Shown one piece after another: positions 42,335 to 62,464 of a stretch of DNA of 64,000 nt. Source of the DNA: Hymenochaete sp. R1 (Eukaryota; Basidiomycota; Agaricomycetes; Hymenochaetales; Hymenochaetaceae); the NCBI GenBank assembly GCA_019400425.1, contig JAFREE010000004.1, forward strand, positions 310,001-374,000, written 5' to 3'. The notes beneath the pieces are model-generated. The model had not been told where the DNA came from and did not search any database. It saw nothing but the letters and a program-made list of their open reading frames with translations. How positions within the stretch are numbered: the stretch's first letter is position 1; each line of letters opens with the position of its first letter. The translations under genes were made by a program, and so were the position numbers.

Positions 42335-42408
42335 TGCCCCGTGGCTTAGTTGGCTAAAGCGTGTGACTGTTAATCACAAGATCGAGAGTTCGAGCCTCTC
42401 CGGGGCAG
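42335..42408 (+). tRNA. tRNA-Asn (GTT)
   Basis: The acceptor arm pairs TGCCCCG (42335-42341) with CGGGGCA (42401-42407). The anticodon stem TGTGA/TCACA encloses CTGTTAA with anticodon GTT. The T arm is GAGAG-TTCGAGC-CTCTC. There is no intron. A T5 run about 7 bases downstream serves as the likely Pol III terminator. Confidence 0.96.
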
Positions 42409-42521
42409 CTTAAAGTTTTTCTTCGCTTTATTTGTTTTCTCTTTCTTTATGATTCAAATCAATGGAATGTTATGAACGAGTGGTTCGCACATGTTTTTAA
42501 GTAAGCCTTGATATTTTGGCA

Positions 42522-43301
42522 CTAAGTATTCCGAGTTGAACGAGCAAGCCCTGCGAGGACTTCCACCCCAGCTTTGGCGCCATCAACGACCCGCACTTCG
42601 CCCAATCCTGCTTCGCGTACGCCTGCCTTCACTAGAGTCTCCATCCCGGCCATACCTGCGCAGCCCAGTATCAAGACATCTGCACCCAATCCAGCAGCCT
42701 TGGCCGATGTTTCTTTCATCAGCCTTTCCACCCGCGTCTGATCACCTTCACGCAGCTCAACCACGCCTATCCCACTCGTGACGACTCCCGCGAACCGTTC
42801 GGAATTCGCTCCAAGGAACGCACGCATGCCAGCGATGAGCGTGTTTTTGATGCCGTGTCCAGTACTTACGACGGCAAAACGGTGACCAATGACGAGCGAA
42901 TGTAGCACAGCGGCCTCGAAGATGCCAACGACTGGCTTAGAGGAGTGGTCAATTATGAGGTGCTCACGCAGCATATGCACGAGTGGATGATCGGAGACTG
43001 GGAGGACATTCTGAGTGAGTATCTTTGACGACTTCGTTCGCACGAAGAAAGACTTACAGCATGAAACGAGGAAACCGTCATATTTCTGTATCGCGCCAGA
43101 CTTGACCAGTGCCTCATAGCATGCTGTCGCCGTCTGGTTTGCCGTGATTACGTTGCTGATCGCCTTTGGAGCATGAGCGGGAGCTGTGAAGTACAAAAGC
43201 TGAGTCTCAGGGGGTGTTATGGCATCGAGCGATTCCTTCAGTCCATCCGTGATGCTTTTTGAAGAATTTGGATTTATGACGAGGAGTTGCATGACGCTCA
43301 T
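42522..43301 (-). CDS. Asp/Glu/hydantoin racemase (HyuA/DCG1-type)
   Basis: This is a cofactor-independent racemase that interconverts D- and L-5-substituted hydantoins or allantoin. It starts MSVMQLLVINPNSSKSITDGL, the signature start of the family. Splicing of 42998-43057 (GTAAGT to CCCAG) gives SCFSDHPLVHML with the first catalytic Cys (codon 43059-43061). Reading through this intron in frame gives an extra, meaningless segment. The second catalytic Cys sits in ILGCAGMAGM near 42660. The C-terminus is VVDGAKAGVEVLAGLARSTRNT. It opens the cluster and is transcribed away from the class II aldolase gene, with 458 bases between starts. Yeast DCG1, an allantoin-regulated relative, is the alternative functional reading. 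Confidence 0.9.
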   Translation of the reverse strand: MSVMQLLVINPNSSKSITDGLKESLDAITPPETQLLYFTAPAHAPKAISNVITANQTATACYEALVKSGAIQKYDGFLVSCCKSFFVRTKSSKILTQNVLPVSDHPLVHMLREHLIIDHSSKPVVGIFEAAVLHSLVIGHRFAVVSTGHGIKNTLIAGMRAFLGANSERFAGVVTSGIGVVELREGDQTRVERLMKETSAKAAGLGADVLILGCAGMAGMETLVKAGVREAGLGEVRVVDGAKAGVEVLAGLARSTRNT

Positions 43302-43759
43302 GGTGGCCCCGGACTTTGCGTATGTCTTTTTCCAGGATGAATCCGGATAGTCAACTAAACATCAACTATTAATCTTATAGGGCGCCGGCCAAAGAATAGT
43401 CTTCCTAAAAATGCATCTCGGCATGTAACACAAGGCACACGGGATCATTTCGAGTTCAACTTTGCCTCTCAGATTAAGCGTTCTTATCAGGCTATCTACG
43501 ACGGTGACAATCGGTCAACGGACCCGCCGCCGGGCAACCGGATAACGCGCTTTCGAATTGAAGGCCGGACGTTGGCCGGTGGCCCCTTTTTTTATTCATT
43601 TCCTGACCATGGATGTGGATGTAATGGGTGCAAACCATTCCACGATCCGGAATCTACCTGTAATCCAAGTCTACAAATAGCCCGGAAGTCTGTTGGCGTA
43701 TCGGAACGCAGCAGACGCATACCCTCTCGACCCGCCTCACTCATATACTTGGTTTCTCA
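43302..43759. promoter_or_regulatory. Divergent promoter of the racemase and aldolase genes
   Basis: The region contains GC-rich triplets, including GCCGCCGGGCAACCGG at about 43529-43545, and a copy of the motif TTGGCCGGTGGCC at 43572-43584. Zn2Cys6 regulators bind CGG triplets, so these are candidate sites for the regulator encoded in the cluster. Confidence 0.5.
43572..43584. promoter_or_regulatory. Cluster promoter motif, copy 1 (TTGGCCGGTGGCC)
   Basis: The 11-mer GGCCGGTGGCC occurs here and again at 56753-56763, in two divergent promoters of the same gene cluster. It holds a CGG triplet and its complement. It is a candidate binding site for the Zn2Cys6 protein at 51722-54933; this is inference. 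Confidence 0.4.
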
Positions 43760-44998
43760 ATGTCGCTTACTGCTACTGGAACTATTCATCTGAACGCTCC
43801 GAAGCTTGCGCATAAGGCTGCCGAACATGACTTCAAGCAGACCGTCGATGAACTGGCCAAGAATCCTCTGGAACGAACGTGGCGCAGCAACAAGGAAGGC
43901 ACTGTTCGCCTTCAGAGCGTCCCGGAATTCAAGGGCGACAAGTACGCTGAACGGGAATGGGTAAAGGTATGCGTGTTTCTCTCTTCAAATGCCATGGTAA
44001 TGTTGAGAAAACTCGTATCAAATGTAGCAACATCTTGCCGCTGCATTCAGGTTTTGGGGGAAGCTAGGATACGCTGAAGGTGTCTCTGGGCACATCACAG
44101 TACGCGACCCCGTGTGGCCAGACCATTACTGGATGTTAGCATTTTATTTAGGATAGCTCGATTTCATGCATTGAAGGCATTCGAATTTGTAGGAACCCAT
44201 TTGCAATCCACTTCTCGTCCATCAAGGTCTCAGATCTAGTGCTGGTGAGCCCCGAGGGCTACGTGACGGAACACGGAGCTCAACTTCCCATAAACATGGC
44301 GGGGTTTCATATTCACTCGGCTATTCACAAGGTATGCCTTGGGTCCCCAATTTCGCGAACTCCGAGGTTGCTCAATCGACGATAATATGGACAGGCTCGG
44401 CCGGAGATTCAAGCTGCAGCTCACTGTCACTCTCTCCATGGGAAGTCATGGTCGGTATTCGGGAAGCCTATCGACATTCTTACGCAAGATAGTTGCCTTT
44501 TTTACGATAATTTGGGCGTGTACAAGAACTTCGGTGGTATTGTTCTTGCACCAGAGGAGGGTAAAAATATTGCTGAAGCTCTCGGACCGAAATACAAGGC
44601 ATGCATTCTCCAAAACCATGGCTTACTGACCCGTCAGTAATTGATCCCGTTCTCTCCGATTGATGACCAACTCACTTTGAACTGCTTCCAGTTGGTACAA
44701 CCGTTGACGAGGCAGCGTACTTATTTTCCGCTCTGGAGAATCAATGCAAGTCCCAGCTTCTCGTTGAAGCCGCGGCGGCCAACGGGCTACAGAAACGTGT
44801 CATTGATAATGAGGTACACCCATCTCCTTTTTTGAAGTACTTCTCCTGGCTCATCATCGGATGGAAAAATCTATCTCCAATTGCTAGGACGCCGCTTTCA
44901 CAGCGGCTACGATTCAATTCTGTGAGAACACTTATATCAACTTTCAGCCAGAGTACCGCCTACTAGTCGAAGAGACAAACGGCGCCTTCCTGAAATGA
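43760..44998 (+). CDS. Class II aldolase/adducin-family protein
   Basis: The protein has the zinc-dependent class II aldolase/adducin fold. It starts [19 protein letters not shown]. After two introns it has [22 protein letters not shown], the usual entry to the domain. The zinc ligands are suggested by [21 protein letters not shown] and by [17 protein letters not shown]. The region between has [20 protein letters not shown]. It ends [10 protein letters not shown]. Fungal members of this family are widespread, and most have no known substrate. In bacteria the fold cleaves sugar phosphates or decarboxylates 2-oxo compounds. Its place in the cluster suggests it may act on a product downstream of D-amino-acid oxidation, but the sequence does not show this. 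Confidence 0.88.
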
Positions 44999-46343
44999 GC
45001 GCTAGCTTGCTTTCATTTGGGATGGATCGCGTTTGTTTCCTGACAAGGCTGCGAAAGCCTATCTAATGCTGATTATTTTATTCGGTGATTTCTTTATTGA
45101 CCCTGTAATTGTATCATTTACGCATATCCGTTGATAGCCAGCAGTTCGCACACTGGGTTTCTGAACTTGAAAATTTATCTTATGTCTCAAGAATCATCCC
45201 ATCGTGTTCACGATTTGGAGCATTGATCCCGTTGCAAAGGGAAAATCAAATTGCACCTGTGACTTCTATTCTTCCATGGGTCCTCAAGCTTCTCCGATTC
45301 TCCCGCGACCTCCGTCATTCGAACTCAATCCTCCCCTTTCCTATGCATCTTACCATTCAAACCGAACGTGGCACCAGATCGCAGATTCCGGGCCATGTCT
45401 CCAACTCTAGCCGCTGATGTCGCAGTGCTCTTCTTTTTTTCGTTTTGCAAAAGCCGCGGTGTTTGTAGTAGAGCTTGTTCCTTATACGTGTGCATACACA
45501 CGACGAGTCGGGTCGGGATTGTATGCGGGAAGACTTCTGGTGGTGGTTATGAAATTCGTGGAGATGGCTGACTGATGGCGTTTTGAATTGTCCTCCTCAA
45601 CGATCCGATTTGCTCAGTTTGCTCTGAAATAATTCGATGACTATTCTGTCTGTGTAATGAGAAATTGACTAGATCACGTTGTAGATGCAGTGAAACACAA
45701 TTTGTAAGTTCCCCGGGCTAACTACAACGCACTAGTATTTAGTGCGTTCCGATGTTCGTCCTTTCAGAATTTCACTGATCCAAGGAAACCGCCGTCTCAT
45801 CGAGCCTTTGTGTATATCCTCGCGCCACCTCTGGGTAGAGCGACATCACGGATCCAAGTGTGCACCGTAGTTTCGAATATTCATCCGGAAGTGAATGTCG
45901 GAACTGCTACACCCACGTTATTCGAGTTTAGTCGTCTTCTCATCGTAAGTGACATTTGAAAAGGATAAGCTTGAGGTGGCGCACTCTTTAGTTTACATTC
46001 TCTACGTCAGGAGGAGGCGTTGGTATTTCATAGATTGATGGGCTTGGTAATTCTCCTTTTCTGGATACAGCAATTCGCCAATACAGCCCAAAGATCACGT
46101 CGCAAGTCCATATTGGCCTTGAATAAAGAATGAAGCTACTATACAAGAATGGGTAAACAAAATAGTTGTAACATATATTTAAGACAAGGTCTGGAATAGA
46201 TGGCTTTGTGGAATCCAAGAACAAGCACAACAGAATGAGAATCTATATTGACGGGCGAAAATCAATAAACGACAGGAACTTAAGCGAGACTCCGACGAAA
46301 TGCGGCAGAGAAAAGAAAAAGGGGTCCAGTCAGCTTTTACAAT
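44999..46343. other. Intergenic stretch of 1.3 kb between convergent genes
   Basis: This lies between the aldolase stop and the permease stop. It holds a short perfect inverted repeat, ACGCACTAGTATTTAGTGCGT, at about 45728-45748, but no gene I can support. The pyrimidine-rich part at 45250-45400 gives open frames without domain features. Confidence 0.4.
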
Positions 46344-48318
46344 TCAAGGAGTCTGTACCGCTACGTGATAATCACTCTTCTCAAACCCCACCTTTTCATC
46401 GACAGTTGTACTGTCCGTTGAGGACGAAGCCGCTCGCTGCATTGCGCCGAGGGAAACAGGAGGCCTGAACAATTTCATGAGGGCCGTATACGTGGTAAAA
46501 GTAACCACGAAGCCCACGGGCCATACTACAGAATACACGTATGAAGCGCCAACGGGTATAGACTTGTAGCCTCCGACAGCCTTGACAAATCCAGGCAGAT
46601 TGGGGACGATACCGAACGTGAAGGCAACAACGGCGCGCCAGTTCCAACCCGCGGTGTACCAGTATGGTGTATTCCCCGCGCCCTTTCGGTACAAACCCGG
46701 AAGGTTGAGGAAGCGATTTGAAACGATCCAGTAGTGCGCGATGAGGATGCCGCATACGGGCCCAAGAAATATACTGTAGCCACCAAGGAAATTCGTGAAT
46801 GTCGTAGCTGAGTTCTGGATTTTCCATGGGACAGTGACAAGCCCAAGGATGGCACAAATGTATTGGCCCCTACGGATGTTGATATATTCGGGAAAGACTA
46901 TCATGAGGTCGTTTGCAACGGCTGTCGAGTTGGCTGAAATGTTCGTGGCAACCACGCTAAGGGCCCAACAAAATGCGCTGAAGAACTGAGCCGCTCGACT
47001 ATCGAAAAGTGCGCTCACTTGGAGGGGGGACCAGGTGCTGACACCGTAGATAACCTGGACGGCTGAAGTGACTACGACGCCCAAAATAGCGCAGAGGGTG
47101 ACAAGGATGGAGAGAGAGAAGATGTTGGTCCAAACGACTGTCCTCGAACTCTTTGCATATCGCGTGAAGTCGGGGATGTTGATGGCGAGAGTTGCTTTGG
47201 GCGCTATGGCAGATGACATGGCAGAAAAGAAGATGACAGCAGCAGGAGTACTGGAAGTGTCTGTTTCTTTATCAAAAATTGGACCGAAGCCGTGCGCTCG
47301 TCCCACTGCCCAGCCTATATTTGTATATCAACATGGAGGAATGCATATAAGCGGGACGGGGTGTCATACCGAAGAGTGTGAAACCAAAGATAGGCATAAT
47401 TATGACTTTGACGAGGAAAAGGTACCTGAGCTTTGACATGTGGATCCATAGTAAAGGTAGTTGAATGATGTAGAAGAGCTACAAAAGAAGATAATAAGCA
47501 AAATACCCACCATTGTGATCGAAATCGAAAGCTTACGAAGAAGCAGAGAAGCTCGGCAGACGTTACGCTTGCAGACTCAGACAAATGGTTTGGAAAGTGC
47601 TTGAAAGATGGCCATATAGCCTGGATCATGATTTGCAAGCACTGTCCGCCCTGATAAGTCTGAGTACCAAACCAGAAGATAGCAGCGATGGCACGACACA
47701 GGATGGCCAGATAAACACCACGGGTGCCAAAGCTAGCTCTCGCAAATATCGGAAACTTAAATTCAAGAAAATGTCAGAGAAACAATAAGGTAATATGTGC
47801 TCGGAATCATACATTTATACCGTAATGACACCCAACCCATCCATTCATAGCATTTGGAATGGAGATTAAAAAATGTCCAAGAAATACAGCACCACTGGAC
47901 ACAGGTCAGAACCTGACTATCTAGAGATAGCCGTTCGACTTACATCGTAGCGCCCGGTGAGAGTCCTTTCGTCACTGCTGATGAAGCAACTTGGTATTGA
48001 GAAACTCCAAAAGCCTCGGCGACCCAGTAGCCTTCATATAAACTGAGAACCGGGGTTTGAATGCTCAAAGACAAACAACGTACCTGTAAGGTGGAACCAA
48101 TGCCAACGTCTCAATTCACTTCCAGGTTCGCCTAGACGAGGAACGGGTGCTAGATCAGGTTCGCACTGAGAGACGGAAGTCAGCTTCACCTCGATCGCCA
48201 AAGACTCGAAAGACAGACGTACTTCAATTGGCTCACTTCGTCCTTCACAATCCGATGCAGCCGCCAAAAAGGTCGAGGTCTGCTTTGGGATTCGAGCACG
48301 TTGGATGAGGGAAGACAT
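46344..48318 (-). CDS. NCS1-family nucleobase/hydantoin/allantoin permease
   Basis: This is a proton- or sodium-coupled importer with 12 helices. Start MSSLIQRARIPKQTSTF is followed by CEPDLAPVPRLGE after one intron, then RRWHWFHLTG spliced to YWVAEAFGVSQYQVASS. That is the conserved helix 1 of NCS1 carriers. Later come MNGWVGCHYGINFPIFARAS, TYQGGQCLQIMIQAIWPSF and NIPDFTRYAKSS. The C-terminal half has a long uninterrupted exon with GGYSIFLGPVCGILIAHYW and NLPGLYRKG. The family covers uracil, allantoin, uric acid and hydantoin carriers (FUR4/DAL4/FurE and bacterial Mhp1). The neighbouring hydantoinase and racemase favour a hydantoin or ureide substrate. It is divergent from the hydantoinase. 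Confidence 0.93.
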
Positions 48319-49349
48319 GAGAACCAGATAAGTGCTCGGGTTCGCTAAGTCTCCAGGTGTATTGACAGACGCTTTATGAAGAACACTGCATCTGACTGGT
48401 CGGCCGGCGGCGTCTAGTTTTGGAGATTGTCGTTCGCCGTGAAGGCAGGTACAAATGAAGAGAAAGAGATAAGACGAGAGATAAAAGATATGGAAGAAAG
48501 TACGAGCGGAGAGGTAGCGGTAGCGTGTGCGTTCAAAAATTGGACACGGACTTTGTCGACGTTCACGGCTGAGAAACGAATCTGCGTCCCCTCCCCGAGC
48601 CTTCCGTCCTCCGTCGCGAGCGTCTTCGTCCACTACGGCTGTTCGTTCACGTTATCGGCCACGGCCACTGACCACATCTGCGGATCTGGCGTCTACACCG
48701 AAGGCACACTGTGTCTCAGTATCAGAAAGGGGCCGCTGATATCGACCAAAAGATAACCGCGTCTGAGAGCCATCTCTCTTGTGGTAACCTTGGCTGATTC
48801 ATCTCTACTTCTTCAACCAGAATATCTGCTGCAAGGGACTCGACTGCTACGGGAAGATTTTAAGTAGCCTCGAGCGGTCCACAGTGACCAGAATGGCAAT
48901 GTAATTGAAATTGATGGTGAGAAGCAGGCATGGGTGCTTCCTCAAATTTCTTCTCAAGCCCCTTAGACTTCGATCGCACCTCAGATCCAAACAAACAAAC
49001 AGACGCATGCCGGTGACGACGGTGACCACCAACACAGATGAGAGGCCGAGATGACGGAAGGAAAGAAGCGTGCTGAGATAGAAATAAGATGTATAGATAG
49101 AAATAATGGCGGCGGTCGATTGCGGCCAAATCTACCTCGCTCGTTCAGTAGCTGCAGCTAATTTCCCCGTCGGCCAGCAGCCGGTCCCATCTCTGGCTGG
49201 ACCTCCCTTCTCCCCTCCCTTCCCCCCAAGGTCTATTCTATATTTTCTAAAAATCTATTTCTGCCAAGGTCAATGTGCCTTTCAAAGACTTATCTTTCAC
49301 TTTCTTTACACCCTCATCTTGCGTCCCTTTTCCCTTGACACTTCTCGCG
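48319..49349. promoter_or_regulatory. Divergent promoter of the permease and hydantoinase genes
   Basis: About 1 kb separates the two starts. It contains TCGGCCGGCGGC at 48400-48411, a close match to the motif in the other two cluster promoters. A CGG-N7-CCG arrangement lies at about 49170-49182. The stretch before 49350 is strongly pyrimidine-rich with TCTATATTTT, a likely core promoter. No coding exon is seen. Confidence 0.5.
48400..48411. promoter_or_regulatory. Cluster promoter motif, copy 2 (TCGGCCGGCGGC)
   Basis: This differs at two positions from TTGGCCGGTGGC in the racemase/aldolase promoter. It is a candidate regulator site by position and similarity only. Confidence 0.35.
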
Positions 49350-51364
49350 ATGTTTACCTTCGACACTGTAGTCAAGAACGGCAAAATAGCCACCGCCTCC
49401 GACGAGTTCTACTGCGACATTGGTATCAAAGATGGTCTTATCAAAGCCCTTGCTCAGGACCTACCCGTGGGGAACACTACCATAGTCATTGATGCAGAGG
49501 GAGCATACATTACAGTGAGTAAAAGAAATTCTCGTCACATTCATCTCTGACAAACATGCTCTATTTTAGCCTGGGGGAATCGACTCGTACGTTCTATATA
49601 GCTTGAACTCATGCCAGATTTATTCTTAATTATTAATATTTGAGCCACGTACACATTGCGCAATCTGGTGAGTAACGAGAGTTAATGTTTACTCCTTCCC
49701 CTTCTTATCCGCATTGAAATGTTCAGGCTCAGGAAAGCATCTCGGAGCTCGCTCTGCAGATGACTGGTCGTCTGGAACACGCTCTGCTGTTGCAGGGGGC
49801 ACGACCACTGTTGTCGCCTTTGCAGTTCAATCTCGCGGGACCTCTATGAACGCTGCCGTGGATGAGTACCACGAGCTCGCGAACGATGCCGCGCACTGCG
49901 ATTATGGGTTTCATGTCATCGTAACGGATCCCACCGAAGAGCAGATGAAAGTTGAGCTTCCAAGACTCGTTAAGAGAGGAATCTCAAGCGTCAAGGTATT
50001 TAAACAGTAGCTCCTTGAGGCATGGCATTCAAACTCATTGTTTACTGTTGCACTTTAGATTTATATGACTTATCCTGCTCTAAAACTTACTGATGCTCAG
50101 ATTCTGGATACTCTATGTTCCGCCCGGAAGCAAGGAGTAACAACGATGGTCCACTGTGAGGTACGGAACGTGATTTCCGGCTCCTTTTTGATTTTTTGAA
50201 ATCTGACCTTGTTCCTAAGAACTCGGACATGATTGAGTTCATGTCTAACTCGCTGGTTGAACGGGGTATGACCGAGCCGTGGCATCATTTTACATCGCGC
50301 CCAAACATCGTGGAGACGGAAGCAACCTATCGCGCGATTGCTCTCGCCGAGCTCATGGACTCACCAATGCTTATCGTGCACGTCTCCGATCCCGCATCGA
50401 TGAAGACCATCCGCAAGGCTCAGACAAGACTTCTTCCAATTTATGCTGAGACTTGCCCGCAATACTTATTCCTGAGCGGTGATGCTACACACAAACCTGG
50501 TTTTGAAGGAGCAAAGGCATGAAATTTTTCTTTGTGTTTAGAGTTAACAATTGATTTTTCCTTTTGATGCAGTGCGTCTGTGCCCCTCCTCTTCGAGATG
50601 ACCCGAAAGACAAGGAACGCATTTGGGACGGACTCCGGAATGGAACATTCACTGTATATTCAAGTGACCACGCTCCAACGAACTTCTACGATGAGCGCGG
50701 CAAGCAGGTAATGCTTTTGCTTCTATTCCTGACTTTTTGTTTTGATAAGTCTGTTCCCGCAGCTCGGAATGATCCATAACCCAAAAAACAACCCTCATGG
50801 TAACTTCCGCACTACGCCCAACGGCCTTCCAGGCGTCGAGACCAGATCTCCATTGCTCTGGAGCGAGGGCGTCCTTAAGGGCAAGATCTCACCACAACGC
50901 TTCGTGGAACTGACAACCACCAACGCCGCCAAGCTTTGTGAGAAATCAAATTCCCCCCTCATCAGCTTTCCTTTATGGCTTACCATACACGCAACATTTT
51001 TTTTGATCATGAAGATGGCATGTACCCCCAGAAAGGCACCATCCAACCGGGCTCGGATGCCGACCTCGTCATCTGGCACAACGCAACGACCCGCAAGTCT
51101 TACACCATCTCCAACAACAAGCTTCATCACCAAGCCGATTACACCCCTTTTGAAGGTATGGAGGTTTTAGACTGGCCGCGTTTTACTCTCTTGAGGGGAA
51201 AGATCGTGTACGATGGCGATAAGAACTTGGTCATGAACGGTCCTGGTGAGGGGAAGTTCTTAGCTCGCGGGAAGAGCTCGCTCCCCGGTCCGAGGAACCA
51301 ATGGTTGAGTGCCTGGAGGCCTGACGAAGACTGGGAGGCTGAACAGGCAGCGAAGGATCTTTAA
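49350..51364 (+). CDS. Hydantoinase/dihydropyrimidinase (cyclic amidohydrolase)
   Basis: The enzyme opens the ring of 5-substituted hydantoins or dihydropyrimidines to N-carbamoyl amino acids. It starts MFTFDTVVKNGKIATASDEF. The first metal-binding motif, GGIDSHVHIAQS, is assembled across a 23-base exon (49645-49667) that carries the HxH histidines. AVAGGTTTVVAFAVQ follows. The carbamylated Lys is the last codon of an exon (49993-49995), in SSVK spliced to IYMTYPA. Further ligands are VHCEN, MLIVHVSDP and the Asp of YSSDHAP. The C-terminal region has GTIQPGSDADLVIWHN. All binuclear-zinc ligands are intact. It is full length for the family. The neighbours favour hydantoinase use over the classical pyrimidine-degradation role, because no dihydropyrimidine dehydrogenase is near. 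Confidence 0.95.
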
Positions 51365-51721
51365 GCTTGTGACTTAGCTTGTTTGTTTTTCTCTCCAATG
51401 AGCTTGCTTTCTTTGTTATCTCGGGCTTTAAAGATGCTCTGGAAGTTTTTGACCTGTCACTTTGAATGCGCCTCTGACGTTACTTTTCTTTGCTTGATTA
51501 TTTTTGCCACGGACGGCCTCTTCTAATGTAACTAGTTCCTTACTGTACAAAGTGTAAACATATTTAACAACAGCGGAATAATAAGGGACAAAAGCAGACA
51601 TCCTCTTATCCTCTCCTCCTTCCATTCTGAACGCCGCCTCCTTGATGACAGGTGCTTCTTCGTATCCAAGACTCTCAGACTTCGGCGCCAACAACACAGA
51701 ATAATCCAAAGAACCAATCAT
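51365..51721. other. Intergenic stretch between the convergent hydantoinase and regulator genes
   Basis: About 360 bases hold the two 3' ends. A minus-strand open stretch at 51428-51721 ends just at the regulator's stop and has no domain signature; it is more likely untranslated sequence. Confidence 0.4.
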
Positions 51722-54700
51722 TCACCATCCAGCTGGTCTCCCGAAGTTGTAATTGGTCAAAGTCTCGTCAATGTTTCCGTTTCCATCGATGCCGATGTTC
51801 GACATCCACGGCGTCCAGAACGTGACGCCATCCATCCCTAGCATATCCAAGTCTGGAGCGACTGCCTGCGTTTGCGTCGAGTTTACGTAGTCAGTCGACG
51901 ACGACGTCGGCGTGCCGTGTCCCTGCACGTGGGGGTGTTGGCCGGTGGCAGGGTCACTACCTACAGTAGCCATAGGAATTCCATCGGGATACTGGCCGTG
52001 GAGGAGGACCGGGATCTGGGCTGGTGTCGGCGAACGAGTGCTGCTAGTACCTCCGCTGCTACTTGCGATCGCAGAAGCCATTTGTACAGAGTTAGCCGTA
52101 GGGTTATACATCGACGGGGAGTGTTGCGAGGTGGCGTTCGTAGCCGGTAGAGGATGGTGGTGCATGACTTGCGCCGACGGCGAGTACTGATAACCAGAAG
52201 CATTCATAGTTAATTCTGGACTGATAGGTGTTCGAACATGTTGTGGCTGCGGATGAACTTGCCCCTGCATTTGCTGATGATGCTGCATTTCGTCCCATTG
52301 CATTGACTGAGATGGATGGGGGAACAGATTCCCTTCTAGCGCTAGAATCATATCATTATTCTCCGTGCTTTCCTCCCATGTCTTGAGACGACTAATAACT
52401 GAGGATGCCCGAGCCAAGGCCGGATCGGCCACATCCCATCTTGCCTGCTCTCGTGCTTTACGCAAAAAGGAAGTCATACGAGATAAGAGATGGAGTGTAA
52501 GTGCATGAGCGTAGGGTGTATCGAGGAGGGCCGCAGATGCCCGTGAAGATCTACTGGAGGTGACTCCATCATTCGACTGACCCATTGCGACGTCTACCTC
52601 ACCCGCCGATCCGAGAGAAGCGAGACAAATGCGTATGAGAGACGACAATAAAGAAGAAATGATATGTGACGAGTCTAGACAAGTCATCATCAGCATGTCA
52701 AACGCATACGCGAAGCCTTTGAACCCACAACATAACCAGAAACCATCAAGACTAGCTTCAGACAAATTTGTTATATAGTTCACGGCGTCCGTGAACAAAT
52801 TGAGCGTGTCTACGTCTGGACGAAATGGGCCACCAATTCCTGCTTCAGTCTCAATGTAAATTCGGCGAAGCATACAGCGGAAGCAGACGATATGAAGAAG
52901 CAAAGAGTCTGAACAACTGTATGTCAGCCAGAGAATAAAAAATTGGACTCTAATTAGCACTCACGAACGCCTGGCTTCCTTTCAGCATTGCTTGTGATCT
53001 CACTTTTCCATTGCATAGCCAGATCACGTGTTTCCTTTTCCAGGACAACAATCTCATCCATCTTTGCCTTCTTGGTCTTCTCCTGACTCTTGAGCGTACA
53101 GATCTCGTTCTGCAAGCGCGCAACAACCTCAGAAAGCCTACAAAGTGCAGCATACGCTTCGCAAGATACTGCCAAGTCGGCATTATCTATCGCATTCGCA
53201 AGGATAGTAGGTGATGGCGAGGGTACGTCTGAGTTGTGTACTTGCATATGCGATGGTCTTGAATTTAGAAAAGACATCCTTGAGCCGATTTCGTAAGCTC
53301 CCGAGTATGCACTACGCGATCTAGACTTACCACGCGTCATGGATCCTTAAACCCCACCATAATTGTATCCGTAGGTTTTTTTCCCATATTGGAATAGACC
53401 ATTTTGTAGGGTTTAAATGCAGCCCGAGCAACTGAGCGTGTGCAATAGCCTAGTATTTATTCGAATGAATACCCATCATTTCACAATATGATGGGAAGGG
53501 CACACCTTTGCTAATGTGAGATAGTTTCCTCTGGGATCAATGGCTGGCCGAGCGCCAATATCAAGGACTGCAGCCGCTACTGTTGAGAGTCTCGGACTAT
53601 CAAGGCCAGGTTCCGAAACGTTGGGTGCATGTACGAAGCTCCATGCCGCAGCTGCCATATCACGGAGGTCGTTCCGGTGATTGAAGGATGTGGCATAGAT
53701 GGCCGAAAGTAAATAGGGTGGAAACTCTCGCATGTTTTTCAAAAGAGGTAAGATTGGGAACGCAGGGTGCGCTTGCGCGAAGTAAATTTCAAGTAGTTCC
53801 TATGAGAGCTGTCAAAGGTGGATAAACAGCTGAATTACTAAGAGACTTGCCTCCTCTTTCGGATGGGAAGGCAGAGCCTGGAGTAGGGTTTTCACCCTGT
53901 AGAGCACCTGCACGCCCGGATCGTGAGCAGAGCGAACTGCAGCAAATGCCGTCACACTTCATCAAAGGCACAATAAATATATTACTCACCATCCGGTCGC
54001 GGCGCAAAGACGACATAGACCTAACATGCCGAAATAAGTTTATGATGCGTAATCCGGCTGGGGAAACTCACAGGCCTCTGGCTATTGGTCGATATCTGTT
54101 TAGCGTGTGCTACACCTGGACTGTTGGCGCCCGTGGAGATGGGGAGAAGGTCGTCTGTTAGCACGGCGGTGAGAACATGTGGTTCGTAGGATTCCGGTGC
54201 TGCAGAATCGAGAGAAGTGACAGAGTGCGGAGCAGGCTGATTTTGTTGTGCGTACATGACACACAGAAAGTCAGTGATCGAGTTCCGCACAAAGCTACAG
54301 AGGGACGTACGTGTATCATTCCTCCTGCAGCGTCCGGTGAGCCTGAGGAACGAAGACCGGTAGTATCGTGGTCGACATTAGTTGCCTTGCCGTGGCCAGG
54401 TATGACGGAATCTATGGCGGCAGTAGCGAGAGTTTGAAGGCCACTTGACTCCGGTGTTCTCCTAAGGAGCAGTGTCTTCTGCTTCCGCACTGGCGGACCC
54501 TCTTCAAAGGTACAGTTCTTGTGAGTTTGACTATTTGGAGAACAAGTGTGTATCAGAATAGGCAAGAACGGCGCGGGAGATGTCAGACAGCGGCGCACAT
54601 GCATTCGAAGCAAGGTGGACCTTCTACGCTGATTGTACATCTCGTTTTCGTCCTACGCTACTCAACCGATAAAATAAGTTTGTTGACACATTTAGTCACC

Positions 54701-54933
54701 CGGATGCTCATCGATGCTTAAAAAGACGACTCACACACGAGTCTGTATGAGTTTAAGGAACAAAAAGAAGGGACGGTGCGTAAGCCTCGAGGCGCGATGG
54801 AACTGGAGGACTCTGGAGCTAGAAAAATGTACTTGCCGCAGGGGCGATTCTTGCGGCTTCTGAACGGACGACCTCCAGGTTCAAAGAAATAGTGAGTTGT
54901 GTTTCTAGCGGGCGATGATTTTGACTCGTGCAT
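51722..54933 (-). CDS. Zn2Cys6 fungal transcription factor, candidate cluster regulator
   Basis: This DNA-binding regulator starts MHESKSSPARNTTHYFFEP. The zinc cluster is spread over four exons: 54837-54933, an 8-base exon 54735-54742, 54599-54657, and one starting at 54530. Together they give RPC-DSC-RRTKTRC-TISVEGPPC-FEC-IQTHKNC, i.e. C-x2-C-x6-C-x8-C-x2-C-x6-C. The first intron uses a GC donor (GCAAGT). After a disordered Ser-rich linker comes the fungal-specific TF domain with RPVYVVFAPRPDG, FAQAHPAFPILPLL, GLHLNPTKWSIPIWEKNLR, LWWGLRIHDAW and NSRPSHMQVHNSDVPSP. A coiled coil lies near TLKSQEKTKKAKM. The C-terminus is a Gln/His/Ser-rich, acidic activation-type tail. It lies in the middle of the catabolic cluster. 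Confidence 0.9.
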
Positions 54934-55259
54934 GGTGAGGATGATGATGCTAGGGGTCGAACATCTGAGTCTGAGCTGAACGGAAGAGCGTAAGTGCGAA
55001 GACTGGACTAGTCTAGCCAGTCCAGTCGACTCGACTTTGTGCCTGGCTGTAAATACTCGCACACAGGCGAACGCGTCAACAGCAGCGAACGGCTTCTCAT
55101 TCCGCTACACCGCCACTGCAACATCACAGCACAGTGAGCACACGCACAATCCATAAATTCCATAAATAATAGATATTATACGCCTATTCCAACCAATGAT
55201 AGCCAAAACTTATTTCAACTTAAGCGACCATATCCCGCCCCAATCTCCGAATCCATTCA
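54934..55259. promoter_or_regulatory. Upstream region of the regulator gene with an inverted repeat
   Basis: About 330 bases lie between this gene's start and the stop of the carbamoylase gene. It contains GACTGGACT (55001-55009) and its inverse AGTCCAGTC (55019-55027) about 70-95 bases upstream of the start codon. The repeat could be a regulatory site or a 5'-leader hairpin. No copy of the GGCCGGTGGC motif was seen here. Confidence 0.4.
55001..55027. repeat. Perfect 9-base inverted repeat upstream of the regulator
   Basis: GACTGGACT and AGTCCAGTC are separated by 9 bases. A second nested pairing, GACTGG/CCAGTC, is possible. It lies in the expected promoter or leader of the Zn2Cys6 gene. Confidence 0.55.
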
Positions 55260-56603
55260 CTACCCGACGGGCTCCGGTGGCTCAATGACCCCTTTCTGTT
55301 CAACGATCGCAGAATAATGCTCTGGTCGACGATGCTTCTCAAAGCAGAATGTTCGTTCCTTCCCCTGTCTGTTTTTTTTTTCAAGTTAATCCCTGTCCAG
55401 GTATACGCTAGCTGGACACTTACAAACAATCATCAAGGTCAATCTCAGAAACTACCAGCTCATCTCCTAATGTATTGCTTTCTGCGACAATGAACCCCTC
55501 AGGATTCACAATCATCGTGCCTGAAATGAGCTCGAAATGTCCGTCGTCCCATCCTGCGCGCGCGGATGTTATGCAAAATGTCGCATTCGTGTATGCGTGC
55601 GCTTGTACTACCACTAAACACCAGTCAGAAGTAAAGAAGATATTCGTTTCTCGACGTACGCTTATGGTGGAATAATGCATTCTCTCTCGCTTTCTCACGT
55701 GAAACATTTTGATCACCACCCCAGAGCTTGGGAGCGTATGCTGTCGTGTTCTAAGAGCTCTCTCAGAATGGGGCTGTAGAAAGAGCTCAAAGAACTCACG
55801 TAGCCTATGCACATGATCTCAACACCTTGTAGGCCATACACTCGCCATCCCTCTGCCCAGCGGCGATCGTTGCAGATAAGTTGCCCAATGATAGGCGACC
55901 CCGGACGTCGTGAGCTTACCATGCGCGGAGATAATGAAGGGGCACGGAATGCCACGAAACCGAGGTTTCCTGGTGTGAAATACCTGCTTGGTATGTACAT
56001 CGACCAATTCCAGAAAATAAAGATACTATCTACTCACCGTTTTTCAAGCTGATTGGTCGTCAAAGGATCTTCATCAAAAGGCTACTGCGGCATTTCATAA
56101 TACAGTCAACTTGATAAGAGGCTTGGAAGTTCTTACTTCTACAGTGCCTGGCAAATGAATCTTACGATATTTTCCTAGGACTTCCCCGGACTTCCCGCTC
56201 ACGTACACAGCAGTATTGTAAGGAACACCCTGAGGCGTCTTCTCGGCGTAACCAATGCTTACGTCTATGCCGAGTTTCCTAGCGTGTGCGAAGAAAGGTG
56301 CGACGTTGGGTGAGTTTACGATGCCCTCCTCTGTTTCGACTTCATAAAAGGACTCTAGCTCAGTCGGATCGCGGAAAATGTATCGAGGGAAGAAAGTCGT
56401 AAAAGTCGTCTCCGGGAAAACGACGAGTTGAACTCCTTGAGAAGATGCTTCATCCAGGAGAGCGATGAGGCGATCAACCACAGTTGAACGAGGAGTTGTT
56501 CGGTCTATAGCGCCAACCTGGTATGGTTGAGCAGGCACCTCATACCGATGACCGGGATAAATGCACTTACCTGCGCAGCTGCAACTTTGAGAAGACGAGG
56601 CAT
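55260..56603 (-). CDS. N-carbamoyl-D-amino-acid hydrolase (nitrilase superfamily)
   Basis: The enzyme hydrolyses N-carbamoyl-D-amino acids to D-amino acid, CO2 and ammonia. It starts MPRLLKVAAAQ, spliced to VGAIDRTTPRSTVV. The catalytic triad is visible: Glu in VVFPETTFTTFFPR (codon 56410-56412), Lys in GKYRKIHLPG (codon 56161-56163) and Cys in ICNDRRWAEGWRV (codon 55872-55874). CNDRRW is the hallmark of D-carbamoylases and separates them from beta-ureidopropionases. QLEKRYFTPGNLGF, FHHKLVVQAHAYTNATFCI and KHRRPEHYSAIVE also match the order of the bacterial enzyme. It ends GVIEPPEPVG. Six to eight introns split the gene. The product would feed the D-amino-acid oxidase on the other side of a shared promoter. 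Confidence 0.92.
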
Positions 56604-57101
56604 GATCACAGTTCTGACAAGTCACAATCGAGTACATCAAGTCCAGGTTTTAAAGCGCCGCTCTTGAACCAGAGAATAGATAGGAGATAAACGAAAGGCG
56701 GAGGCAGAGAGGCAGACCGGAAAGTTGTTGTTCATTTGGCTCTTGGCCGGTGGGCCGGTGGCCGAGAGGACAAGCGAATGAAAAGACCAAGGTTTCTGAT
56801 GCTGGGTCCCTTACGGTGTGTACAGTGCACCCGCTTCTAAATTCTCGGGCATTCTATGCAAATTTTGAACAAGAAGAAGGGGCGATGGTGGTAACTTCCA
56901 GAAATGCTCGGAAGAAGCAGAAGCAAAAGCAATGCAATGCCCGTGGAGACGATGGTTACCTTATTTGGATGATATGGACACTCAAAACGTCTCGCCGCGG
57001 CAATTTGAGCCTTTGGGATGTACACTCATGTAGCTCTTCAATAACGACGTCTGTCTGGTATAAATGCGCCGCTCGATGTTAGTATCAATAATTCCTCTAT
57101 A
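56604..57101. promoter_or_regulatory. Divergent promoter of the carbamoylase and D-amino-acid oxidase genes
   Basis: About 500 bases lie between the two starts. TTGGCCGGTGG (56743-56753) and GGCCGGTGGCC (56753-56763) overlap as a tandem pair. It is the densest cluster of the motif in the window. The rest holds no recognisable feature. Confidence 0.5.
56743..56763. promoter_or_regulatory. Cluster promoter motif, tandem copies 3 and 4
   Basis: Two overlapping copies of GGCCGGTGG occur here. They share 11 bases with the copy in the racemase/aldolase promoter. They are candidate sites for the cluster's Zn2Cys6 protein; binding is inferred only. Confidence 0.4.
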
Positions 57102-58394
57102 ATGGCTTCCAATAGGCCAGTTGTGATTATTGGATGCGGTGTCATCGGTTTAACGACCGGCATCCGGTGCGTGTTTATCCGTCCGCGTTCTTAAGTTATC
57201 TTGAAACCACGACTGATATCTCTGCTTAGGTTGCTTGAAGCTGACAGCCAAACTCCAGTACATATTCTAGCGAGCCGCTTCCCACTTGATCCTCTAAATC
57301 CAGAGTATGCGTCATCAGCAGCAGGAGCACATCATCTATCGTTCGCTGCCGACGATGATCTAATGCAACGCAGACTCGATGCACGTACCTTCGAAGTATT
57401 TTGGGACGAGCTAGAGGAAGAAGAAATGACTGGGGCCGAGCCGACGGGCCTATTGAAGCTCACTCAGACTGAATACTATGATGGAAATGAAAGGCATCTG
57501 CAATTTTTATCTGGTTTGCCTAACGTGAGTTCCTTCACTCCTTCTTTTACTCGGTTGTCTATTCGCTAATGAATCCCTCCCTTGAAGTTCAAAATCCTTC
57601 CAAAAGACTACCTCCCATCTTTCGCTACTCACAGTGTCTCGTTCACGTCCATGACAATCGCTACGTCCCATTACCTCCGTCGACTTATAGCGACATTCCA
57701 CAAACTCGGTGGCAAACTTCGACGAGTTCATTTGAACTCCATCCAAGAGGCCACCTCATGTATCGCCGGCCCTCCCCCCAAAGCTGTTGTAGTCTGTGCG
57801 GGTATTGGAGCTCTGAAGCTCACCGGCGTGCAAGACAGAGATGTATTTCCGACACGAGGCCAAGTCTTACTTCTGCGTGCGCCTTGGTGTCGTTCAGGGT
57901 GGACCTACCAAATAGGCAGCCTCAATGGAGGAGAAGGCGGTACGCGAACATACGTCATCCCACGCTTTAACGGCGAAGTCATCATCGGAGGCACACGAGA
58001 AGTCGGAGATTGGTATCGCGAGCCTCGACTGGAGACAACGCACGATATTTTGAAGCGTGCTTTAAATATTTGCCCGTTGCTCGCGCCGCCGTCTGTACGA
58101 CTGTCCGGCCGTGAGCCCAAAGCGGATGACTTGTTGCCACTCGTGGAGACAGAGATTGTCGGGTTTCGACCATCGAGGAAGCCTCATACCGCCTCTGGCT
58201 CAGGACTAAGAATTGAGAAAGGCTCGCCGATGTCGTCAGTTGTCGGCGACATTGAGGTTGTCTACAATTATGGTCATGGAGGATTCGGTTGGCAATCGTG
58301 TTGGGGATGTGCGGAAGTAGTCGTTGAACTTTTGGGAGGACCAAGGGTGAAGGATGTTTCATTTATGTTTAGAAGAGCGGCAGGCCTAGCATAA
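57102..58394 (+). CDS. D-amino-acid oxidase (FAD-dependent)
   Basis: This flavoenzyme turns D-amino acids into 2-oxo acids, ammonia and hydrogen peroxide. It starts MASNRPVVIIGCGVIGLTTGIR, the FAD-binding GxGxxG motif, and is then spliced to LLEADSQTPVHILA. The second exon has SSAAGAHHLSFA, matching the conserved AGA(H)W-type region. The C-terminal exon has VVCAGIGALKL, FPTRGQVLLLRAPW, TYVIPRFNGEVIIGGTRE, GFRPSR (substrate-carboxylate Arg) and VYNYGHGGFGWQS, the FAD-binding end motif. There is no clear C-terminal SKL-type peroxisomal signal; the protein ends RRAAGLA. Two introns are present. It is divergent from the D-carbamoylase, which would make its substrate. Confidence 0.93.
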
Positions 58395-58460
58395 TTTGTA
58401 TAAGACAGTCGTACATTTATTCAATACGCACAATATTAAGACTTTTGTGGGTGGGGCAAA

Positions 58461-61400
58461 CTACATGAAATACATCTTCGTCATCTGCAAGGCATTTATA
58501 TCTCGGAAGTTTCGTTTCCACTGCTCTAACTCGAAGTCTCCTCCACTCATCACCGACACATTCTCAATGTCACCCGCATAATGAAACGCGTCTCTCGAGC
58601 AAACGATCTGAAAAATTGATCATATGGTGAATCAAGGTAAACTTAAGACGAAATTTGCAAAGGAAGACTTGCATCCGCATAATAAACAGGAGCCGGTATA
58701 GAAACGGACCGAGTCGAGCGAGCATATGTATGGCACAAGTCATACGATAGTTGTTGGATTCTAAAAGGTGACCTTGTCAGTACTCCATAGAAACAAAAAA
58801 AATACTGGCATGTCTTACTGGTCGGGGGTCGCTCCGGCCTCGTCTCTCATCACGATGTAATGCGATGACCTTGACGCTTGTAGGATTACCACGTATGAGC
58901 AACTAACATTTGAATCAAATTTACTATCACTTACTTCCTTTCAATCCAGCTTGTGATTGCAGGTAATAATCGAACAAAGCGGGAGATGTGATCCCGGTAT
59001 CGACAACGAACCCTGCGGGGACGTTACCAGAGTTATCGGCCTCCTCTTGACGCCTTGGAATGAAACGGATGTGGTGCCGCTTCGAGACGACAATGAACGT
59101 GAGGGTCGACCCTTTCTTTGGATATCTCGTTAGTTCGTAAACTTCATCCATAGCCTCTGCAAACTAAATAAGCGAACAGAAGTGGAAAGGTTAAAGGAAC
59201 ACGTACTTCTGACCGCCTCCCACTCCTCCCTCACAACCGTGTGAAGCTCACCATCAGACACGCCGTCCCTGAAGAACACGATACGTTTCGGAACGAGGGG
59301 TATTTTCACTTTCTTCTCTTTCCCAAATTCCTTTCGATAGTCATAAAATGCCCTGAGCAGTTCCTGATGCAAAAATTCATTACATCGCTCGCCATTGCAG
59401 AATCAGAAATCTTGCCTTGACCATTTGTCCCATGTTCTGTGTAACACGATCAGATTAGCAAGTTGTATGAGGAGAGAGACAACATAACACCTGCCTCAAT
59501 GATCTCCTGTCGAGGCCTCTGAATGCCTATCCTTGCGACGTACTTTGACAACCACGGATCGACGGACCCAACAAGCGACACGACGGATGGGCGTTGTACA
59601 CCCGGTCCTGGGTGTGAAACGTCTGCCCCTTCATAAAGTTTGAATCACCAAAATTATCGCCCCAGGGGAGGGGAGGGGAGGCACATACCAATCACCATTG
59701 TTAAACCATCAGTGAAGGTGTTGAAGGCAGGAGAGTCCGGGTGCCTTCGTTAAAGAAAAGCCGGTCAGTCATCACGCTACATTGATGTAAACGAATGACA
59801 TCGTACATGTTTATGCCTCCTAGCTTTGCGTTAACCCTGTATTTATATTAGTATAAAGAGGTGCCAAGTATAGAACGTGTACTTACTTTAGTATAAGGTT
59901 ATTTAAGTATTGGTCTACGGAGTTCTTCAGTCTCCTGTCGCCACGGGAATGTGCTTCAACTGCACGTCGAACTTTTTCCAGTTTCTGTAACAATTGCTAT
60001 AATAAACGACGAATAGGACGAGGCGAGGGTGTTACTGACAACGCATTGTGTCGGGATCCCCGCCTCAACATCACCAAAATGTTTGACCTCTTTCCTAATC
60101 GCCGCCGCCTCGTCGGGAAGTATGATAAAGAACATATCAATTTTCGCTGGTGCATTTTGTGCTGCGTAACGAAGGACCTGGGAAACGATTAGAGTGTACT
60201 CGTTCTCACAAAAATTGCATCATTTACGCTCTTTGGGGCGAGTTGATTCTCCTCAATAAATATTTTCGGCTTGCTAGCAACAACTGTTGCAGTAATAAGC
60301 AGAGCTTCGACTCTTAATAATGTCTTTCGAATCACCTAAACCTGGATATGATGTTTTCAGATCTGACTTCGCGATGAGAACAATTACAAGTGCTAACCAA
60401 CAGCTACCATGGCATTCATAAGAGCCGGTGCGAATCGGTCCTCTATATCACTCTGCGAGAGTTCTTGCCGCCGAATGTACGATACTATAGCCCATGTCTT
60501 CAGCATGCCAGCTTCTTTCAGTCTTCGTCCCGTCATATTCCATGAACCAGACTTAGGCTAAAATATCGTGATTAAAAGAGATTAAAAGAGAAAAAATGAT
60601 GTAAGCAACGCATGCGAACGCGCCTTCTCGCACATGCCCTGGCCGAATTGGAGATTCGGTGGAAACAGCTGGCGTCCAGAAAGAGTCATCGGCCTCTGGG
60701 TCAAGTTGATTCCAGTTTGGATAACACTTGGGTTATCGTGAAGTTGCAATTCCTGAACAAATACAGTTAGAAGACTACACATTGTAGTAAGCCCATTTGA
60801 CTCCCCTGCACTCCTTTCTCGATATCAGTCAGCCTTTCATAAGGACGTGCCTTTGAGAAATTCAGCAATTCTGACATCATTCTAGGGCTTGGTATCTTTC
60901 GAAAGAATTGTCCCTCAACGATTTCACAAACTTCGAATGGCAGAACTTCGCCTTTATGGGTCTCAATGCCAGGCCATTCCGGATGCGAAAGTCGTTTGTT
61001 GTACTTGCTGAGAAAATAACTCTGCGGACAGTCAGAGGAACTGAGTGTGTACGGACGTGATAGGAACAAACCTGAATAGATGTCTGTAAACCATTAAGTT
61101 CGAAGTCGAAAAACCCAGCGCGATGAACGAGCGATTTGATGGTTTTTATCCTTTTCCTTGATGGATCGCCCGTTAATTGGTTGATTTGAACTTTTTTGAG
61201 AGCAGATTCCAGAGTTCGCCATCTAGAATCACCTTCTTGCATGGCCGCCAGGTCTCGATTGTCTCGCAGGTCAAGTAACCTTAATGCAAAGTCGGGTAAC
61301 AGGCACTTGGCGTAGCTTTGGGTATGGCCTCAGGAGAAAACCTCAGAAATGTCGTAGCAAACTCACAACACTCCAGTGACTGAATCAACGTTCAATATCA

Positions 61401-62464
61401 ATTGAGAAAGTGAAGGTCTGATATTCCTAGTACAGCAACGTGAGTTATCTTGCCACAAGAAAAGCAATAAACTTACAATGAAAAGCCGCGTCTTATCTCA
61501 AATGCCCCAAAGACCCTGAAATCACGATTCCCTGGCCTGTTAACGAAGAATTTGTTCCTCGTACTGTAGATAGCACGTCTGCATCCATACTGTTAGCGGA
61601 GACTCGTTCAATTAAGAAATAACAACTGACGACTTGGCAGCCTGGGAAACTAATACGTTCAAAGCCTGTCGGATTGTTGTTAGTCGACTTCAGGTGCTTT
61701 AAGGGTCAACATTTTTTTCTGTGAAATCGCACTTGGAGAACGACAGAATCCCACGGCATTCCGCCACCCTTTCCCTCCAATACTGAGTCTAATTCTCTGC
61801 ATACGGTGAGCATCGAATATGCATGGTATAACTCAAGTCGCTCTACCTTCTTGTGATCCTTGAGGCTTCGGTACAAACAACGTCGTAGCTTTTTGGTGGT
61901 CGTCCGGGCCCCGTCTCGAACTCGATTGGGAACTGGCGTATAAAGTTAGCCCTATTTCAGAGGGATAGAGAGAGCTAGCATTTTACATTACGGGAGTTAT
62001 CATTGAATAAAGGAGGTCCGGCGACAAAGAGATTCGCCATCCCGTCGTATCCCACAGCTCTTTGTGAGAAAACTTGTTCATAAGTGCTCTCAACCTTCGC
62101 AAAAACTCTTTGACGGGTTCTTTTTTTCATAATGAACAAAGGCTTAATAACAAGTTGTCAGAACGATTTGCTTACTTCTTGTAGGTCTTGGGTATTTCAG
62201 GAGAAATTGCTAATAAAGAAACCGCATTCGCTATAGTAAAGCGGAAGCATCAGAAAGGATACTCACAGACTGTAAAAGATTCACGTCAGCCCACGCGCTA
62301 GCAAAGGGAAGTTTCCACTCACTGTCATAGTGTGTAATGTTCAAGTCTTTCGGTACATTCACCAAAAAGGTATTGACGAGGACTTCAATTGGCTGGCCTT
62401 GTCGGCCATAGCCTGGCCGCTTTACGAGAACAGGCTCCAGACTAGAGCTATCCCCCGAGACCAT
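58461..62464 (-). CDS. Argonaute protein (PIWI domain, RNA silencing)
   Basis: This is the small-RNA-guided effector of RNA silencing. The start [20 protein letters not shown] is followed by the N domain segment [19 protein letters not shown]. More than fifteen short introns split the gene. The PIWI domain has [10 protein letters not shown] (catalytic Asp, codon 59621-59623), [10 protein letters not shown] (Glu finger, codon 59504-59506) and [11 protein letters not shown] (Asp, codon 59265-59267). [19 protein letters not shown] and [12 protein letters not shown] follow, and it ends QMTKMYFM. At the fourth catalytic position, where the His of an SHAG-type motif is expected, codon 58951-58953 is CAA (Gln). 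The protein is complete for N, PAZ, MID and PIWI by length, though PAZ exons were not traced one by one. Confidence 0.92.

Follow-up and report, generated by a model that had tools for sequence, protein, structure and literature searches.

Bacterial D-hydantoin systems join a racemase, a D-hydantoinase and a D-carbamoylase in a cascade that underlies the industrial hydantoinase process, as set out in parts of two reviews (PMC7431475, PMC7247363). Here we report on a locus of the basidiomycete Hymenochaete sp. R1 in which the same three enzyme families occur side by side. It lies in a stretch of 64,000 nucleotides, referred to as the window (positions 310,001 to 374,000 of contig JAFREE010000004.1, assembly GCA_019400425.1; C271:310001-374000 in our numbering), of a 27.8-Mb genome, and consists of seven intact, intron-bearing genes at window positions 42522 to 58394, which encode a racemase, a class II aldolase-type protein, an NCS1 permease, a hydantoinase, a Zn2Cys6 regulator, a carbamoylase and a flavin adenine dinucleotide (FAD) oxidase. 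Unlike the bacterial system, this cluster is eukaryotic, carries introns and includes an NCS1 permease, a Zn2Cys6 regulator and an FAD oxidase. On our best reading of the sequence, it would be the fungal equivalent of that bacterial system, ending with the oxidase as its last step.

Other described systems resemble parts of the locus. The D-aspartate oxidase of Vanrija (Cryptococcus) humicola (9vpf), which falls in the same clade as the window oxidase and shares 51% identity with it, is, according to sections of one study, essential for the use of D-aspartate (D-Asp) and made only when D-Asp is present (PMC8708985). For Cryptococcus gattii, parts of another paper describe Dao1 as the oxidase active on D-Asp (PMC4489021). 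PYD2 of Lachancea kluyveri (2fty) is the best solved match of the window hydantoinase, but its long branch falls outside the clade of the linked basidiomycete enzymes. The yeast DAL (allantoin) cluster brings together an NCS1 permease, a cyclic amidohydrolase and the racemase-like DCG1 and is thus similar in its families; in the genome studied here, however, the allantoinase-type gene and the allantoicase gene are on other contigs (C116 and C304, respectively) and not in the cluster.

In the open-access literature searched, no fungal hydantoinase/D-carbamoylase gene cluster was described, which is not proof, as subscription journals lay mostly outside the search. Mentions of hydantoinase in a fungal context, in the portions of the literature examined, referred to hydantoinase/oxoprolinase domains or were bare annotation entries. 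Even for bacteria, it has long been uncertain what the workhorse enzymes hydantoinase, carbamoylase and racemase do in nature. Given a conserved cluster in eukaryotes that ends with an oxidase, this natural role becomes testable by simple nitrogen-source assays in tractable yeasts such as Rhodotorula toruloides.

The cluster encodes the enzyme families of a D-hydantoin pathway

All seven genes listed in the original prediction were present, and Pfam supported every label (Table 1). The six completely spliced proteins were each confirmed at an E value of ≤4e-25 (Asp_Glu_race, Aldolase_II, Transp_cyt_pur, Amidohydro_1, CN_hydrolase and DAO), and the regulator, modelled as two parts with the middle join left out, scored 25.8 bits for Zn_clus (cut-off 21) and 26.4 bits for Fungal_trans (cut-off 23). 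The motifs of the four key enzymes were likewise found intact, as claimed; the catalytic role of the residues checked is presumed from their enzyme families. With its PF01177 domain and the cysteines C81 and C194, the racemase resembles the two-cysteine racemases of bacterial-type D-hydantoin systems, its substrate being a prediction, and it is the sole PF01177 match in the genome. In the hydantoinase, the metal-site residues H62, H64, K158, H190, H246 and D323 typical of D-hydantoinases were invariant in an alignment of 11 sequences. The carbamoylase, a nitrilase-superfamily protein with the residues E47, K130 and C190 and the motif ICNDRRW, scored 240 bits against solved N-carbamoyl-D-amino-acid hydrolases versus 24 bits against beta-ureidopropionase. 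Judged by these scores and residues, it clearly belongs to the D-carbamoylase kind found in the bacterial-type system, and neither a beta-ureidopropionase nor an M20 beta-alanine synthase is present in the cluster. At an E value of 1e-10, NCBIfam assigned the racemase to no family and yielded no match to a D-carbamoylase model.

The hydantoinase passed the D-hydantoinase model TIGR02033 and narrowly missed the subfamily PRK13404, which is named dihydropyrimidinase (621.2 versus a cut-off of 647). Among solved proteins, the dihydropyrimidinase of L. kluyveri is closest to it, ahead of the bacterial D-hydantoinase 1nfg (350 bits), so the name hydantoinase alone cannot fix the substrate. In a tree of 73 rows, 18 linked basidiomycete hydantoinases fell in one 26-row clade (support 100/100) with the L. 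kluyveri enzyme outside; five linked ascomycete enzymes fell elsewhere among the fungal rows, and 13 bacterial loci were separate. L. kluyveri Pyd2 joined other fungal rows on a branch of length 1.2 with a support of 86/85, and because of this long branch and support its position is unsure. The original prediction had named grouping with pyrimidine-degradation enzymes as evidence against a hydantoin pathway: the carbamoylase does not group in this way, and the hydantoinase does not do so clearly.

The core genes are co-located in other fungi

To define co-location, we required the same species and contigs of identical size, or locus tags no more than 10 apart. The relatives visible were the best 120 per protein (of 8000 for the carbamoylase, 7998 for the hydantoinase and 257 for the oxidase), from which 42 carbamoylase, 37 hydantoinase and 44 oxidase rows entered the count, whereas nameless rows and many species occurring in a single list were left out. 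Among the matches listed, carbamoylase and hydantoinase were found together in 15 of 19 species (10 of 13 basidiomycetes and 5 of 6 ascomycetes). Carbamoylase was found with oxidase in 16 of 21 species, and hydantoinase with oxidase in 14 of 18, or 14 of 19 if Suillus ampliporus, with the genes on contigs of different length, is included. Where locus tags could be compared, those of carbamoylase and oxidase were 1 to 3 apart in 9 of 10 species and 2241 apart in the tenth. All 5 species comparable for carbamoylase and hydantoinase had tags 1 to 5 apart, and all 5 comparable for hydantoinase and oxidase had tags 1 to 4 apart; this count leaves aside a further Coleophoma hydantoinase, which lies on a different contig. 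Misses included Kwoniella shivajii (oxidase), Meredithblackwellia, Neolentinus, Gloeophyllum, Pseudohyphozyma (hydantoinase) and Thozetella. Comparison is poor for Rhodotorula toruloides and Sporobolomyces pararoseus, whose carbamoylase row stems from a different assembly or strain than their other rows. Hence, the search for the same neighbours in other fungi, which the original prediction had proposed, revealed the core of hydantoinase, carbamoylase and oxidase in several basidiomycete groups and did not bear out a cluster peculiar to one fungus. The nearest protein relatives among the matches listed came from Phellopilus, Coniferiporia and Phellinidium.

Of the best 120 carbamoylase relatives (of 8000), 22 had a racemase domain fused to the carbamoylase, and all 22 racemase halves aligned to the window racemase with 32 to 39% identity. 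The named carriers among the matches listed were ascomycetes, except for the basidiomycete Neolentinus. In Diplodia seriata, the tag of the fusion gene adjoins that of a hydantoinase relative. From their domain composition, the fusions are possible natural bifunctional enzymes and, with the cluster enzymes, a possible fungal source of stereoselective biocatalysts. The fusion proteins (P0034 to P0115) were ∼600 amino acids (aa) long and occurred in Colletotrichum, Aspergillus, Diplodia, Phyllosticta, Neolentinus and others. Since co-location is conserved and fusions exist, a chance grouping is not an explanation.

The oxidase belongs to the D-aspartate oxidase clade

The last enzyme had been labelled a D-amino-acid oxidase. 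While the oxidase family was correct, the generic type was not, as both scores and tree assigned the protein to the D-aspartate oxidase clade. Among solved proteins, the Vanrija enzyme matched with 362 bits and the next, a D-amino acid oxidase, with 120. In a 73-row tree, all cluster-linked oxidases fell within one 66-row clade (100/100), spanning Agaricales, Microbotryomycetes, Hymenochaetales and Tremellomycetes (group names are those to which we take the relatives to belong), with the Vanrija enzyme inside the Tremellomycete part. As the co-located oxidase of R. toruloides we used row P0288, the sister of P0262; residue counts were the same with either. An old linkage dating from a basidiomycete ancestor, and including a D-aspartate-type oxidase, would fit this tree. 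An acidic D-amino acid is the probable ancestral product, since the Vanrija D-aspartate oxidase and the cluster-linked oxidases share one clade.

In the human enzyme, Arg216 binds the side-chain carboxylate of D-Asp and Arg278 the alpha-carboxylate, as stated in parts of one paper (PMC8260693). By alignment with the Vanrija and human sequences, 21 of the 24 linked oxidases have Arg at the position of Arg216; across the whole clade of 66 rows, 49 have Arg and 9 have Lys. In the window oxidase it is Tyr227, in two linked relatives also Tyr, and in a third relative His. Near Tyr227, R240 is invariant in the clade (66/66), with Trp or Gln in the seven outgroup rows, and could take the role of this lid Arg in side-chain binding. 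The equivalent of Arg278, R314, was present in all 66 clade rows as well as in 7 of 7 others and is therefore not specific to D-aspartate oxidases. The window oxidase differs from the Vanrija enzyme by Tyr227 in place of the lid Arg, by R257, the equivalent of the gate Arg (human Arg237), in place of Met, and by its end, AGLA versus ARL. Of 13 Microbotryomycete oxidases checked, 12 have KL as their last residues, in most cases KAKL, an ending that resembles a peroxisome signal; the window oxidase and its three close relatives are without a peroxisome-type C-terminus. A second oxidase relative in the genome (42% identity) is located on C280. The main text of the paper on Vanrija D-Asp transcriptome sequencing (RNA-seq) data does not mention genes of the cluster type.

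Permease, aldolase-type protein and a shared promoter word

The permease was confirmed as a member of NCS1 by PF02133 and TIGR00800. The argument for a hydantoin carrier drawn from Mhp1 proved weak, because no solved protein other than Mhp1 gave a match (68 bits). A second NCS1 gene lies on C317. For the putative class II aldolase, PF00596 established the fold. In the Protein Data Bank (PDB), TqaM (9m0a) scored 227 bits versus 219 for 4xxf, deposited as a fuculose-1-phosphate aldolase, followed by the unnamed class II aldolase protein 9n43 (216), the decarboxylase NovR (9ryg; 167) and, remotely, fuculose aldolases of the 1fua type (∼37).

Six genes form three divergent pairs, with 458 bases between racemase and aldolase-type gene, 1031 between permease and hydantoinase, and 498 between carbamoylase and oxidase. 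The 11-base word TTGGCCGGTGG occurs in the first and the last of these promoters and a third time within the regulator gene (Table 1). There are 11 copies in the 27.8-Mb genome, and all three of those in the window lie in the cluster; the word read backwards occurs three times in the genome. Three copies in 15.9 kb compare with 0.0063 expected (P = 4e-8); the word was chosen after looking, from shared words, and multiplying P by the count of all words of this length in the cluster corrects it to 6.5e-4. A search for pairs of Zn2Cys6 half-sites in the promoters yielded nothing convincing. That the Zn2Cys6 protein binds TTGGCCGGTGG is a guess.

A proposed catabolic pathway and its alternatives

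In the proposed pathway, the NCS1 permease would import a ring compound, and the racemase would interconvert its enantiomers. The hydantoinase, whose family is known and whose substrate is presumed, would open the D form to an N-carbamoyl-D-amino acid. From this, the D-carbamoylase would, as expected of its family, release the D-amino acid together with CO2 and ammonia, and the oxidase, again by its family, would convert the D-amino acid to a 2-oxo acid, ammonia and H2O2. More speculatively, the oxo acid may be a substrate of the aldolase-type protein; control of the pathway probably falls to the Zn2Cys6 protein. One example would be a route from hydantoin-5-acetate through N-carbamoyl-D-aspartate to an acidic D-amino acid. 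From the gene content and its conservation, we estimate the probability that the locus is a catabolic cluster for 5-substituted hydantoins and/or N-carbamoyl-D-amino acids at about two in three. Regarding racemase, hydantoinase, carbamoylase and oxidase as one pathway, the original prediction gained support from the co-location, the racemase-carbamoylase fusions, the location of the allantoin genes elsewhere and the failure to find a dihydropyrimidine dehydrogenase in an exon-wise search of the draft genome, while the substrate and the order of reactions are what we infer. Such a pathway would add an overlooked route of nitrogen use and give fungal D-aspartate oxidases a metabolic context.

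Several observations weigh against this assignment. The racemase is distant from solved racemases (60 bits to allantoin racemase and 52 to hydantoin racemase), and among solved proteins it is a dihydropyrimidinase (2fty, 449 bits) that the hydantoinase matches best. Tyr227 at the lid-Arg position would speak against strict D-Asp specificity of the window oxidase. The promoter between permease and hydantoinase has no exact copy of TTGGCCGGTGG, only a version with two mismatches at 48400. Three further nitrilase-superfamily loci (C246, C313 and C284) are known by the superfamily alone, so a beta-ureidopropionase may be encoded elsewhere in the genome. Among bacteria, we compared the best 80 of 595 confirmed hydantoinase loci, where some flanks were short and counts are lower bounds. 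A racemase-family gene was near the hydantoinase at at least 33 of the 80 loci, but a D-carbamoylase gene was within reach at few of them (at least 12 of 80), and an oxidase of the window kind was absent from the flanks fetched. Searched with one query sequence, the permease was found at 1 of these 80 loci, again a lower bound. The loci with hydantoinase and D-carbamoylase close together were L060, L093, L098, L099, L105, L106, L107, L109, L114, L115, L118 and L121; a racemase-family gene was also seen at 8 of these 12 (L098, L099, L106, L107, L109, L114, L115 and L118).

A narrower reading, which overlaps with the proposed pathway and does not exclude it, joins only racemase, hydantoinase, carbamoylase and oxidase in one pathway and treats the permease, aldolase-type and regulator genes as separate. 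Linkage or fusion elsewhere was indeed shown for core genes only, but the aldolase-type gene shares with the racemase gene a divergent promoter that holds the rare TTGGCCGGTGG, and the permease gene shares one with the hydantoinase gene, albeit lacking the exact word. We consider this restriction possible, at well below even odds.

Reductive pyrimidine breakdown, with the hydantoinase as the fungal dihydropyrimidinase (Pyd2) and its neighbours incidental or using side products, appears unlikely. In its favour are the relationship to 2fty and the observation that no second close hydantoinase copy was found in the genome; searches of the genome were made exon by exon in a draft assembly, and at that sensitivity absence is not proven. 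Moreover, an M20-family gene on C83, outside the cluster, matched bacterial amidases and carbamoylases with 65 to 74 bits, including an N-carbamoyl-beta-alanine amidohydrolase with 68 bits (yeast beta-alanine synthase, 47 bits), and the three nitrilase-superfamily loci mentioned above could also serve this pathway. In the same exon-wise search of the draft, however, no dihydropyrimidine dehydrogenase was found, since the sole match of the marker domain Fer4_20 lies in a glutamate synthase. In addition, the clustered carbamoylase is of the D type, the racemase and the D-oxidase have no place in pyrimidine breakdown, and Pyd2 lies on its long branch outside the linked basidiomycete clade.

Allantoin, itself a hydantoin, might instead be the compound served by the racemase, the permease and the ring-opening enzyme. 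Allantoin racemase is the best solved relative of the racemase, and NCS1 includes allantoin permeases, although the window permease scored far below the cut-offs of both allantoin permease models. With the separate genes on C116 and C304, a hydantoinase score of 225.6 against an allantoinase cut-off of 357.85, and a D-carbamoylase and an oxidase that would be superfluous, we regard this use as very improbable. It is also highly doubtful that the cluster makes a D-amino acid or oxo acid for a secondary metabolite with the TqaM-like protein as tailoring enzyme, for while TqaM, which we take to be a member of a fungal natural-product pathway, comes closest to the aldolase-type protein among solved structures, a Pfam run on the seven cluster and two flanking genes found no synthetase, synthase or prenyltransferase, and yeasts, Rhodotorula and Kwoniella among them, also have the core.

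Returning to the catabolic D-hydantoin cluster, its history might tentatively be extended to a dedicated pathway of the basidiomycete common ancestor that led from a natural ureide or hydantoin derived from an acidic amino acid via D-Asp to oxaloacetate. The last step of this pathway would then be where fungal D-aspartate oxidases originated, and some lineages would have kept the oxidase alone. In the Hymenochaetales, the specificity of the oxidase may have widened. If true, this rather uncertain scenario would explain why fungi own an enzyme for the rare amino acid D-Asp.

Gene models and borders of the cluster

Six of the genes were spliced completely by hand; a home-made gene-finding model recovered only pieces of most. 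The predicted splice models need three unusual sites and five AAG acceptors, with frame and conserved motifs kept at each. The unusual sites are GC donors in regulator intron 1 (54743-54836) and hydantoinase intron 6 (50517-50572), both demanded by frame and motifs, and a GAG acceptor in the predicted hydantoinase intron 2. The permease model would also allow one in-frame intron of 57 bases to be retained.

Table 1. Features of the cluster and its borders, in window positions
Feature	Position	Strand	Details
SOR/SNZ (PDX1) gene	40511 to ~42000		Left border of cluster; 332.8 bits
tRNA-Asn	42335-42409		Left border of cluster, beside PDX1 gene
Asp/Glu/hydantoin racemase family protein	42522..43301; exons 43301-43058, 42997-42522	-	239 aa, 2 exons; PF01177 150.6 bits
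TTGGCCGGTGG	43572..43582	+	Divergent racemase/aldolase-type promoter
Class II aldolase/adducin-fold protein	43760..44998	+	307 aa, 6 exons; PF00596 151.3 bits
NCS1 permease	46344..48318	-	548 aa, 7 exons; PF02133 344 bits; TIGR00800 (ncs1) 366, cut-off 353
D-hydantoinase/dihydropyrimidinase-type amidohydrolase	49350..51364	+	510 aa, 9 exons; TIGR02033 491.6 bits, cut-off 393.25
Zn2Cys6 transcription factor	51722..54933	-	Zinc motif on first exons 54933-54837, 54742-54735, 54657-54599
TTGGCCGGTGG, third copy	51938..51948	+	Within regulator coding sequence
N-carbamoyl-D-amino-acid hydrolase family protein	55260..56603	-	343 aa, 7 exons; E47, K130, C190
TTGGCCGGTGG and overlapping one-mismatch copy	56743..56761	+	Divergent carbamoylase/oxidase promoter
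FAD oxidase, D-aspartate oxidase clade	57102..58394	+	388 aa, 3 exons; GCGVIG motif
Argonaute-like gene	58460-62480 (approximate)	-	Right border; Piwi 54 + 30 bits on two pieces

Beyond the Argonaute-like gene, from 63003, the window contains what looks, judged by eye, like a Rab/YPT GTPase.

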